From Xestospongia bergquistia (taxonomy: Eukaryota; Porifera; Demospongiae; Haplosclerida; Petrosiidae): a stretch of 64,000 nucleotides of DNA. Where the stretch lies: NCBI GenBank assembly GCA_963965975.1, contig OZ014420.1, positions 4,304,001-4,368,000 on the forward strand. Direction: 5' to 3'. Position numbers and translations under genes: made by a program. This document shows, piece by piece, positions 8,370 through 57,672 of the stretch. The notes below the pieces were generated by a model that had not been told where the DNA came from, searched no databases, and saw only the letters and a list, made by a program, of their open reading frames with translations. Within the stretch, counting starts at the first letter, position 1; the number at the start of each line of letters is the position of its first letter.

Positions 8370-8465
8370 AGCTTTTTTGTTGTCTTATATTCATAGTCAT
8401 AGCCACGCCCATCACAGAACACGTTGTTATGCGGTACGTGCTGCTTGACTTCAAAATAGAATTAA

Positions 8466-8679
8466 AGGGAGGGTATCATGAAAAATCACTATATTTTTTT
8501 TTAATTTAAAAAGAATCCTTTGGTGATATATAGCTTAGTATATTTTTTTCAGATTTTTTCTGGCTACCATTAGCTAGAAAAAAATAGTTGTTTCCAGCTA
8601 TTTTTCAATAAGCTACAAACGTTTCCTGTTGAGGTTGAAATTGGGTGGGGCCGTTATGTGATGTCATCAAAGGGAGAGA
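8466..8679 (+). repeat. Left inverted end of TTAA transposon 1
   Basis: About 214 bp, matching the reverse complement of 10236-10449 with scattered differences. The match runs from AGGGAGGGTATC at the tip to the GGCCGTTATGTGATGTCATC stretch at the inner edge. Confidence 0.85.
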
Positions 8680-8754
8680 TTTCTGCTAATCCATGCGCAT
8701 CTATACAAGTATAGACCTTTATAGACCTTTTACACAGCAAGGTGTGAACATGCT

Positions 8755-9395
8755 TTGCTGACAAACACCTCTCTATGCAAGGATTTGACACGTCTGTCTC
8801 CAGAATACCAGACATCATCTTTAGAGGCCTACCACAGTGTGGTTATCCACTTTGCACCAAAGTCAAATGCCTTTTCTTATCCAGGGATGCATTGCAGGTG
8901 TGTATTAATTTGTGAATTAAGGTTTCTTTTGCTTACTACCAAGTTATTTTTGTAAGAATAATTGTTATTGGCTCCCATTATACAATTTTGGAGGTTGGAG
9001 TTTGCATCACTACACTTTAATGAAAACTCTAATCGTGATCAGGCAGTAACCAAACAGGGCAAGGAACAGTTTGACATTGTGTTTCCCAAATACAAGAAAG
9101 GGGGGTACATTGTTCGCAAAGTGACTGTAGACCAAACATATGTTAAGGCATGCTAACTAAATACCAATAGTCTTTGTTCCTTGTCAACAGCCTAAAGGTG
9201 TTAATTGTTCACTATAATTCCACTGCAGGATATGTTAGCAATGTATTTAGAAAGACATTTGAACTCTGTATAGATGGCAGTAGAGGGGATGCAAGTGTAC
9301 ATGATGAGGAGCTAGCACCATTAAGTAGTCAATACACAAGGCCAGACAAGGACACTGCCATTTCAAGTCATAAGAGTAGATTTAGATTGTCATAA
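8755..9395 (+). pseudogene. Transposase remnant (C-terminal part) of TTAA transposon 1
   Basis: Three exon-like blocks are visible. About 8755-8899 includes LEAYHSVVIHFAPK and FSYPGMHCR. About 8990-9140 includes LHFNENSNRDQA and FPKYKKGGYIVRKV. About 9231-9395 is an acidic C-terminal tail ending in TAA. The FPKYKKGGYIV block recurs in the transposase remnant of the sister element at 56938-57446, which ties both to one family. The N-terminal THAP region and most of the catalytic core are absent, so this copy is an internal-deletion remnant. The exon borders are approximate. Confidence 0.6.
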
Positions 9396-9426
9396 TAATA
9401 ACTATTGTATGCATAACAAACAAACT

Positions 9427-10221
9427 TCACAAATGTGGATATTTGAAACCTGTGTAGTTACTAAAATCAGATGGAAAAGTGTTCCTAATCTTCTTTACTG
9501 CACAACTTGGTAAAATTACTCTTACTCTTTTCCTGAGCCATCCCCAGCACCAACTGGTTAGCTGGCAGTATGCCATATAGTGGTAACATCTGCAGGAAAT
9601 AAGAATGCAACGTGAAGCGATGTATAATAATATTATGTGTGGGCAAACTTACTCATGAACAGATTTTTCTCCAGTGTCCCCATAACGACTCCTGTAACTA
9701 AAATAGGCTGTCTGTAGCACCCATACATTTAAGCACACAGATTGAAAACCTTCATGGTCTGTGATACAATGTATCTCATTGCTACTCTCTTTCATCTTGT
9801 CTTTTACAATGTCTCTTTCATCTTGTCTTTTACAATGTCTATTTCACAGCAACACACATTCACGGCCTGTTGCCATCACTTCACATTGTCCACATTGACA
9901 CCTACAAAAAGGCAGAACAGTACTATAAATAGGGCTATACTTCTATTATTTGAAAGACTTACCAGTCTGTATTGTCAAGCCTGGAGAATTTACTTTCATA
10001 TTCCACTGGAGAGTGGGATGGAAGTATTCACCACTTGCAATCGGCTCAAAACTGTATGGTTCTATGATTTCTGAGCCTGTATCTTCATGACTGCTCTCTA
10101 TAGGATCTGGATTTTCTTCCTGAAAACTGGAAAAGGAGCAAGACAGTCTTATTTCACTAGCTGCATAGCTGTCAGCATCATTGGTGCCAGAAGAACTGAT
10201 CGAGTTGTCGCTTTCTTCCAT
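9427..10221 (-). pseudogene. P2X7 ballast-domain-like protein gene carried by the transposon
   Basis: Three exons lie on the minus strand: 10221-9963 (acidic N-terminus from MEESDNSISSS, with EPYSFEP), 9901-9653 and 9589-9427. The product has the signature of the cytosolic Cys-rich tail (ballast) of vertebrate P2X7. That includes NTDWCQCGQC, ECV..CC, CITDHEGF, VWVLQTAYFSYR and, in the last exon, SWCWGW, VILPSCAVKKIRNTFPS and YTGFK. In P2X7 this zinc-binding region sits on the channel C-terminus; here it is a stand-alone soluble protein with no channel segments. Decay is visible: a frame change before RLDNTDW, a short deletion at the CC motif, and a 26-bp tandem duplication (about 9786-9837). 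The original role in the element is unknown. Confidence 0.75.
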
Positions 10222-10235
10222 TGCAACGCTTTATT

Positions 10236-10449
10236 TCTCTCCCTTTGATGACATCACATAACGGCCCCACCCGATTTCAACCTCAACAGGAAGTGCTTTT
10301 ACATCCTGGAAAAATAGCTGGAAACAACTATTTATTTCTAGCTAATGGTAGCCAGAAAAAATCTGGAAAAAATATTCTGAGCTATATACCACCTAATGAT
10401 TATTTTTAAGCAAACAAAAAAAATAGTGATTTTTCATGATACCCTCCCT
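10236..10449 (-). repeat. Right inverted end of TTAA transposon 1
   Basis: Reverse-complement partner of 8466-8679. It ends ...GATACCCTCCCT and is followed by the TTAA target copy. Confidence 0.85.
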
Positions 10450-10453
10450 TTAA

Positions 10454-54900: not shown

Positions 54901-56005
54901 AGCATCTTTGCAAAATATTGAGAAAAAGTAAACAAAATAAAAATTAGGCGTGTCAATAGGGTGTGTTTAATTGTTACACCCACTTCCTGGCCTGACCGCC
55001 TGCTGGCTATGGCTGAATCAAAGGTAGTTTCGATAATCCCTCTAAATAGAAGCAACTATCCAACATGGAAGATTCAATGTCAGATGGCGTTAATGAGAGA
55101 CGGCTTGTGGAGTATCGTTAATGGATTAGAAACTGCCCCTGCAGATAATACTATGGACAGATACCCGAAGTTTGTTACACAAAGAGACTGAGCCCTAGCT
55201 ACGATTGTATTGTCAATTGATCCATCACTATTTTATGTGATAGGTACTCCAGAGGATCTGGTAGTAGTATGGCAGTTGCTGTTGAATCAGTTTCAGAGAG
55301 AGACGTGGACGAACCGACTAGCACTGAAACGTAAGCTACACTTGCTACAATTAAAAGATGGGCAACCAGTCCAGGAACACGTCAAGGTGATGACAGATGT
55401 TTTTAACGAACGTGCTATGATCGGGGACAACATAGACAATGAAGATCATGTGGTGTATCTGTTAAGCAAGTCTCCCAGAATCGTTCGATATGCTGGCGAT
55501 CGCACTGGAAGCCAGTAGCGATGTACCTCAAATGGAAACAGTGATTGAGTGATTGCTTTATGAAGAGCAGAAAATGAAGAATCGCAGTACATCAGGCAGG
55601 ACTAGTACTACTGAAGAGGCTATGATTGTTAAACAAGGAAGAAAGGACCAAAGTGTTATTTCTGTGAGAAGTATTGTCATATTCAGCGTAGTTATAGAGA
55701 ACGCGAGAAGTCACAAAATGCAGACAAAACGAAGTACACAGCAAAGCACAAGATAAAAAGTACCCATTCCAGACAGCCAGTTGTTAGTACCAGCTCAGAT
55801 AGTGATGAAGTAGGTATGGTAGTGAACCACGTTCTGTCAGCAAATGAAATGACCCAGTTAACAGGAAAATGGATTGTGGACTCTGGTGCAACAAGTCATA
55901 TATGTAATGACTGAAACCTATTTGTCAAATTAGATCCTTTGAAGATACCTACAGTACGGGTTGGGCATGTTTTAAAGGCCACTGCTCGAGATATTGTCAG
56001 TTTAA

Positions 56006-56212
56006 AGGGTAACTGAACCCCAAATTTTTTTGTTCCCAATTTGTTTGTGATGAAGTACTATTACCTGCAAAAATATCCAAAATTGCCAAAACCGCTACTT
56101 CCACTCAAAATTTTGGATCAAAAGTTGCAGATTTCTAGCAATCCGCCATTTTGTCAAAAAAAAACTTCCGTTAATGGGCGTGGTCAATCAGTGACGTACA
56201 AGGGGAACAACA
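56006..56212 (+). repeat. Left inverted end of TTAA transposon 2
   Basis: About 207 bp, running from AGGGTAACTGAACCCC to GTGACGTACAAGGGGAAC. It matches the reverse complement of 57466-57672 with small differences. Confidence 0.85.
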
Positions 56213-56277
56213 TTAGAGCAGTCATCACTTCTCCTCTGTCTTCCATTAACAATGACAGTGACGAGGAGCAATAATAT

Positions 56278-56895
56278 ATGGAGCTCAGCCTTTTCTGTTT
56301 GAGCCAGAGGTAACAGATAGTAGCAGTGGCTCAAGTAGCAGCAGTGAATCTGATAATCAGGACTCACCAGAGAGTAGCAGACTTGGAAATACTAATTGGT
56401 AAGACTAAAAAAATAGTAGAAATGTAATAAACTAGAGGAAGGTGTAACTGTTGCCATTGTGTACCTATGCCAACTGCTATTGAATGTGTTAGCTGCTGTG
56501 AGATACAAGAAGTTCAAGACAAGAAAAGTCATGTTACCCAATCCAGCTCACCAGTGAAGTGTATTACAGACCATCCCGGTTTTGACAATGTTTGTCTTGA
56601 CATATGGGTACTTCAGACTGCCTATTATGTCTACCGTCAGCATTATGGATCTAGTGCACGCCATGGTTCCTTACATGAGTAAGTATGCATAATTATTTTA
56701 ATTGGTGTAATCATTTGTTCCATTTTATTGCAGACAATTACGGCATACAGCATATCGTCAGTTAGTCAGTTGGTGCTGGCCCTGGCTTGGAAGACACAAC
56801 CGAGTTGTCTTACTGGCTTGTGCTGTTAATAAAATATGAGAACAATTTCCTTCTCAAGGAAATTATGTTGGTTTTAAAATATTAATTAATTATTG
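56278..56895 (+). pseudogene. P2X7 ballast-domain-like gene in TTAA transposon 2
   Basis: Exons: about 56278-56398 (GAQPFLFEPE, a Ser-rich acidic run, RLGNTNW), 56442-56678 (CNCCHCVPMPTAIECVSCCE, CITDHPGFDNVCLDIWVLQT, AYYVYRQHYG) and 56734-56895 (LRHTAYRQLVSWCWPW, VVLLACAVNKI, FPSQGNYVGFK). GT..AG borders and phases agree with the gene in element 1. The order CxC..C, ECxxCC, CIT, AYR, SWCW, FP...Y.GFK is that of the P2X7 C-terminal ballast. One TGA (56837-56839) replaces the expected Arg after VNKI. A start codon in frame with exon 1 is not intact; an out-of-frame acidic stretch (NNDSDEEQ) precedes it. Confidence 0.75.
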
Positions 56896-56937
56896 ATTAC
56901 TTAAATCTACTTTTATGCTCTAAAATAGCTTTCTCCT

Positions 56938-57446
56938 TCACTGGTTTATCGGTTTATCATATGTGCTACATAATGGAGGTGGAACAACAGCTTTTTCTGG
57001 CATGATGCCTGCTGTTGCTATTTTAAGTACTTCATCTGATACATTTTCTACAAAGCCTGTAAGAATATTATCAATATTCACCACTACACATGTACATGTA
57101 CTTACTGTAACAACTCTTCCTTTATCTTCCACACTATGTATCCTCCTTTTTTATACTTAGGGAAGGCAATGCTAAACCTTTTAGACCCAAAACAACACAA
57201 AGTCAAAACCTAACATAATACTGTTAATGTCATGCCTGAAACAACAGACTGTGATTCAAAACTGTCTTGAGTAAAGTACTTACTACACACACATGAGTAC
57301 TCAGAAGGAGAATGCCAGTCAGGTCTATTGGTCTTTATCTGCCTGTTCCACGTTGCTCTCAATTAAGCATTCTTTGGGAATGTAAACAGGCTAACTTTAT
57401 CCTTGTGGGTACTGCTACAGTTGGCTACTACACATGTTTTTCCCAT
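56938..57446 (-). pseudogene. THAP-type transposase remnant of TTAA transposon 2
   Basis: The ATG at 57446 starts MGKTCVVANCSSTHKDKVSL, then FTFPKNA and TWNRQIK, then CVCSKYFTQDSFE: a THAP-like C2CH finger (C-x4-C...W...C) whose final His is Tyr here. After a large internal deletion the frame resumes with FPKYKKGGYIVWKIKEELLQ, an intron, and GFVENVSDEVLKIATAGIMP to the stop at 56938-56940. The FPKYKKGGYIV block equals that of element 1. THAP plus TTAA ends is the combination known for Kolobok transposases. One in-frame TAA lies after FPKNA. Confidence 0.65.
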
Positions 57447-57465
57447 TCTTACTCTTATCACATGT

Positions 57466-57672
57466 ATAAACGTGTTCCCCTTTACGTCACCGACTGACCA
57501 CGCCCACTAACGGAAGTATTTTTTACAAAATGGCGGATTGCTAGATATCTGCAACATTTGATACAAATTTGAGTGGAAGTAGCGCGTTTTGGCAATTTTG
57601 GGTATTTTGCAGGTAATAGTACTTCATCACAAACAAATTGCAAACAAAAAAAATTGGGGGTTCAGTTACCCT
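57466..57672 (-). repeat. Right inverted end of TTAA transposon 2
   Basis: Partner of 56006-56212, ending ...GGGGTTCAGTTACCCT. Confidence 0.85.

Follow-up and report, generated by a model that had tools for sequence, protein, structure and literature searches.

Within a window of 64,000 nucleotides, the whole stretch of sponge DNA analysed here, a 2-kb segment between inverted ends carries a gene whose product resembles the C-terminal ballast of P2X7, which raises the question of what this segment is and why such a domain lies in it. We read the segment as very probably a non-autonomous, internally deleted cut-and-paste Kolobok DNA transposon, most likely of the KolX-carrying Kol0 lineage. 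According to Kojima and Bao (2022), Kol0 Kolobok elements, with TTAA duplications and 5'-RR ends, encode KolX, a protein with the ballast fold (PMC9587614, here and below cited from part of its text); its assignment to Kol0 as the most likely lineage is based on KolX and the ends.

Positions 8462-10453 of the window form one element with TTAA on both sides and inverted arms, as described in an initial annotation made from the sequence. The arms (8462-8679 and 10236-10453) span 218 nt including TTAA and show 89% complementarity. The element contains the following features:

8462-8465, no strand: left TTAA target-site duplication, read in the sequence
8466-8679, no strand: left inverted terminal repeat, beginning 5'-AGGG, 89% complementary to the right arm
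8740-8898, plus strand: remnant of transposase C-terminal exon A, from protein matches to transposase-bearing loci, start approximate
8983-9141, plus strand: remnant of transposase C-terminal exon B, from protein matches, boundaries approximate
9229-9395, plus strand: remnant of the last transposase C-terminal exon, within the open reading frame (ORF) 9171-9395, start approximate
9427-9589, minus strand: KolX exon 3, the end of the P2X7 ballast with stop codon, from Pfam P2RX7_C and P2X7 in the PDB
9653-9901, minus strand: KolX exon 2, zinc-cysteine part with an early stop, splice sites by eye
9963-10221, minus strand: KolX exon 1, beginning MEESD, its end out of phase with exon 2
10236-10449, no strand: right inverted terminal repeat, pairing with the left arm
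10450-10453, no strand: right TTAA target-site duplication, read in the sequence

The termini read AGGG...CCCT, i.e., they are of the 5'-RR / YY-3' type. Across 17 elements of several families the termini were 5'-AG, and TTAA was present on both sides in 15, a count that includes two elements with a printed edge shifted by 1-2 bases.

The plus-strand exons within 8740-9395 match the C-terminal parts of transposases elsewhere in the genome, with 46-65% protein identity outside the family. Exon B has matches at C1:21456244 (51%) and C10:3076954 (56%), where C1, C2 and so on denote contigs, and a comparison by eye relates the last exon to the end of the ORF at C10:3076855-3077271. This remnant, to which KolX lies tail to tail, was absent from the initial annotation. 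Its description of a "stand-alone" gene holds insofar as KolX is present, but it is incomplete: KolX is partnered with the transposase, and the element still contains the tail end of that protein. The catalytic part of the transposase is gone from the window element, and the C-terminal exons remain.

Fuller relatives were found at three loci. At C1:21456035-21458926, a TTAA element of 2,892 bp without KolX, whose 19-bp inverted end is perfect, encodes a THAP domain (E 1.4e-18) together with a core whose matches to MULE/Mutator are weak and below cut-off. THAP scored above the cut-off in loci related to the window element, and a DIWH string fitting DxxH was read by eye; a comparison of the core with the PDB gave no match up to E 1. 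Two loci combine THAP, core and KolX. The first, C1:639910-643082, has 207-bp inverted ends, TTAA and stops in the core; at the second, C10:3074354-3077688, element ends were not found. Inside the former, the fullest KolX element, a foreign-looking ORF of 81 amino acids (RNYFVQNWMNGQFKPRMWNYF...) lies on the minus strand near the KolX start (C1:642637-642879). Searching the whole genome with a single core exon returned the same three loci only. KolX is missing from the locus whose exons are open, which speaks against a strict need for KolX in the same element.

The arrangement of the two genes was scanned in 31 stretches (all 30 merged segments, of which the window gave two) using 13 queries taken from the same loci, so that self-matches are included. 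KolX was detected in 25 stretches, the core in 3, and KolX together with a transposase part in 22; in all 22 the two lie on opposite strands. The KolX element C7:6895906-6897865 and the element without KolX, C1:21456035-21458926, are 97% and 95% identical in their ends and 90% in the transposase tail, and they are complementary in content, the former lacking the catalytic stretch and the latter the KolX stretch. Similarly, C1:17138632-17140394 corresponds to C1:639910-643082 with a stretch including the core removed. Derivatives with KolX and without the core occur in several families, which may reflect ordinary internal deletion or indicate a use for KolX. The proportions of element types are biased, because the loci were found via KolX, family DNA or transposase.

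The resemblance to the P2X7 ballast, which the initial annotation had proposed to check by a profile search, was borne out by a Pfam search and by matches to solved P2X7 chains. The minus-strand ORF 9427-9648, which holds the last exon, matches Pfam PF20478 (P2RX7_C) with E 6.6e-9 and 36.4 bits, above the curated cut-off of 23.5, and P2X7 chains in the PDB with a best E of 7.2e-5. The minus-strand window ORFs 9649-9843, 9844-9942 and 9946-10230 gave no Pfam match individually. The cysteines of the ballast are interrupted in the window copy and readable in one frame in a sibling: the ORF C1:18981651-18982010 matches P2RX7_C positions 82-192 with E 2.2e-11 and P2X7 chains with E 4.6e-6, the match to chain 9e3m beginning at residue 477. 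Its CQCGQC, CC, CIT and LPSC align with P2X7 cysteines, for which a role in zinc binding is described (PMC9587614; PMC7016195, the latter likewise cited from part of its text). The three-exon layout (10221-9963, 9901-9653, 9589-9427) is plausible, with GTAAGT donors and AG acceptors seen by eye. An AlphaFold2 model of a damaged 138-amino-acid sibling ORF, built on 9 alignment rows, had low confidence (mean pLDDT 43.9).

KolX thus shares with the P2X7 ballast (PF20478; 6u9v, 8tr5, 9e3m) the CxCxxC, CC, CIT and LPSC cysteines and the motifs R-x-x-A-Y, K-I-R and Y-x-G-F-K; in contrast to P2X7, it has no channel part and sits in a transposon. In alignments read by eye, R546 and R578 of the rat P2X7 GDP site have equivalents in KolX, whereas H547 has one in some copies only and R574 and K583 have none. 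The roles of these residues in rat were described previously, and outside deuterostomes only R546 and R578 are reported to be kept (PMC7016195). An R-H pair (RHTAY) at the position of rat R546-H547 occurs in KolX copies of two families, including the copy at window positions 56734-56884; the copy in C7:6895906-6897865 has R-Y in place of this R-H.

TTAA duplications would also suit piggyBac, the other TTAA-duplicating superfamily, an assignment to which we give next to no chance. The 5'-AG ends are of the Kolobok type by a published criterion, piggyBac proteins are described as lacking most of the seven cysteines that sibling KolX keeps (PMC9587614), and the related transposases combine THAP with a MULE-like core.

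We searched the genome to which the window belongs (21 contigs, 146 Mb) for siblings, and long matches were 91-99% identical to the window element. The first 31 bases of the end, with up to three mismatches, occur at 21 places, compared with none for a reversed control pattern, so the end pattern is not due to chance. These places correspond to nine two-ended elements and four one-ended pieces; the left end at C1:18980689 has diverged too far to fit the pattern and was placed by separate comparison. The KolX region is covered by all nine two-ended copies of the family and by the one-ended piece C5:6892746. The pieces C1:15793055, C1:4512999 and C1:4528442 are without KolX, judging from match ranges. 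The arms of long-armed siblings also differ from each other by 9-15%; most of the mismatch is therefore inherited and gives no date for the insertion. No transposase core was found in the genome search inside any element with the exact ends of the window element.

Judged by its lesions, the window copy of KolX, described as a three-exon gene in the initial annotation, is broken. Exon 2 has a stop after ECV, with a 26-bp tandem duplication beside it, and the end of exon 1 (SRLDNTD) lies in another frame than its start, an assignment made partly by eye with SRLGNTNW and SRLGKTYW of two related families as frame reference. We aligned eight copies, i.e., seven two-ended elements and C5:6892746, leaving out the two-ended C7:605363 and C2:11683620. 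All eight carry apparently disabling KolX lesions; none keeps the exon 1 phase of the relatives, and two lack the splice donor. The exon 2 lesion is common to the window and C8 copies, the C4/C2/C5 copies have other lesions in common in exon 1, and the C1a/C6/C1b copies have a common deletion over the second splice donor. KolX thus appears to be broken throughout the aligned family, and because lesions are common within subfamilies, it was probably already dead when these spread.

A rival reading takes the 2-kb element as a functional two-gene unit in which both KolX and the transposase tail are still expressed and under selection. Exons A-C have no in-frame stop before the terminal one in the eight aligned copies, the exon A protein is identical in six of the eight, and four of six indels in the tail exons are multiples of three. 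However, the other two indels are not, and the changes summed over exons A-C, counted on majority-reference frames, fit neutrality (6 synonymous and 19 non-synonymous, with 6.5 synonymous expected). There is no start codon in the open frame before exon A, a spliced upstream start being possible, and the KolX lesions affect every aligned copy. We regard a functional unit as extremely unlikely and retain the reading of a non-autonomous deletion derivative.

Selection on KolX itself was assessed in exon 3 over 40 codons from eight of the 16 P2RX7_C places, two per family, skipping stop codons. Between families, 56-91% of synonymous sites, an estimate that is often saturated, and 20-27% of non-synonymous sites differ. 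Within families, three pairs had 0 synonymous differences, and the fourth differed at 11% of synonymous and 8% of non-synonymous sites; for the window's family, there was no sign of present constraint. At the level of codon comparison, the differences between families point to purifying selection on KolX during their divergence. Such selection on a gene travelling with a transposon argues for a real, testable role in transposition.

The window contains a second Kolobok element with its own KolX, 46 kb from the first and divergent from it. Its inverted ends are ~200 bp long, and its last KolX exon contains a single stop. TTAA is kept on its left (56002-56005) and lost on its right. It comprises:

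56006-57672, plus strand: second Kolobok element with its own KolX, from family comparison and a P2RX7_C place
near 56442-56678 and 56734-56884, plus strand: KolX exons
near 56938-57150, minus strand: transposase C-terminal exon
near 57210-57506, minus strand: THAP pieces

Genome-wide, at least 16 P2RX7_C places exist, and all 16 returned are Kolobok sequence. Ten lie between two inverted ends, three are one-ended (C5:3600821, C15:3247922 and C5:2780774, each with one end in the stretch examined) and three are internal fragments (C4:5018013, C4:5503845 and C13:2995023) with 88-91% identity to the inside of one Kolobok family. The initial annotation had asked whether the gene always lies between such ends: every returned place is indeed transposon, but some ends occur without the gene, namely three of the four one-ended pieces of the window's family and one pair of the second window element's family, C4:6909760-6910066, whose ends are only 307 bp apart, too short for KolX. 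Beside one KolX fragment lies an ORF of 397 amino acids with zinc-knuckle-like motifs (stretch L018, 1813-3006), retrotransposon gag-like by eye.

A search for the P2X channel gave five matches at a single locus, C7:8116584-8118439, with stops in some matched stretches that are possibly introns. No ballast match was found near this channel locus, the only one found; on C7 the nearest P2RX7_C place returned is 1.2 Mb from it (8.117 Mb). With no ballast match near the P2X locus and ballast genes only in Kolobok sequence, the genome looks like the state before the fusion.

These places also bear on whether a TTAA transposon picked up a host ballast gene, KolX not being a native transposon gene. 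The domain is present in host proteins of other animals, namely P2X7 and nanor (PMC7016195), but a host ballast copy was not found among the returned places, the tail-to-tail arrangement recurs in several divergent families (22 of 22 stretches), and KolX has been described as the second Kol0 protein (PMC9587614). Capture from the host is very unlikely in our judgement, and KolX is better taken as part of the Kolobok element. An ancestor would have encoded a THAP-DDE transposase and KolX; in a derivative, THAP and the catalytic part would have been deleted, and this derivative would have multiplied through transposase made elsewhere that recognised its ends (mobilisation in trans). KolX, presumably with a zinc-binding ballast fold, would once have functioned in transposition as an accessory protein, most likely by assisting the transposase; in the window's family it would now be a passenger.

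The initial annotation had suggested a mobile source for the P2X7 ballast. This idea holds but is not new: Kojima and Bao (2022) reported that P2X7 arose by fusion with KolX, the likely source of its tail, and proposed that a P2X4-like gene captured KolX, which became the tail of vertebrate P2X7 (PMC9587614). The literature searched contained no further report linking Kolobok or KolX with the P2X7 ballast. The window element is a previously undescribed non-autonomous Kolobok with KolX, whose link to P2X7 was already known, and it lends independent support, from another genome, to the published derivation of the P2X7 ballast from a transposon gene.

The P-element transposase, which also combines THAP with RNase H, needs GTP (PMC7776569, cited from part of its text). 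By analogy, KolX could work in trans as a guanine-nucleotide and zinc cofactor separable from the Kolobok transposase, a proposal that we consider unlikely and, for the nucleotide role, speculative; KolX may then be a detached counterpart of the GTP-binding insertion domain with whose help the P-element transposase pairs and cuts its ends. If so, the P2X7 GDP site would be a leftover of transposition chemistry, and elements that have the transposase but not KolX, or KolX but not the catalytic core, like the pair of one family described above, would be halves of a two-component system.

Among known systems, Kol0 elements of the Kolobok-1_XT type share TTAA duplications, 5'-RR ends and the KolX ballast cysteines with the window element (PMC9587614), and its fuller relatives carry a THAP domain with a putative DDE transposase core. 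The window copy and aligned siblings differ in lacking the THAP and catalytic parts, in their broken KolX and in their long ends (218 nt). Kol0 is reported from vertebrates, annelids, cnidarians and sponges (PMC9587614). Rump et al. (2020) reported the domain on its own from a sponge, from cnidarians and from other animals, and make no mention of transposons (PMC7016195). These ZCD or nanor-like proteins have the same domain without a P2X channel, whereas here all 16 returned places, of at least 16, are transposon sequence. In Kolobok transposases, an H2CH motif usually accompanies DDE and THAP (PMC6004289, cited from part of its text). The Xenopus T2-MITE and XKol Kolobok elements resemble the window element in TTAA target, AG termini and the spread of non-autonomous derivatives beside transposase-bearing elements (PMC6004289); unlike them, the window element retains much coding sequence and KolX.
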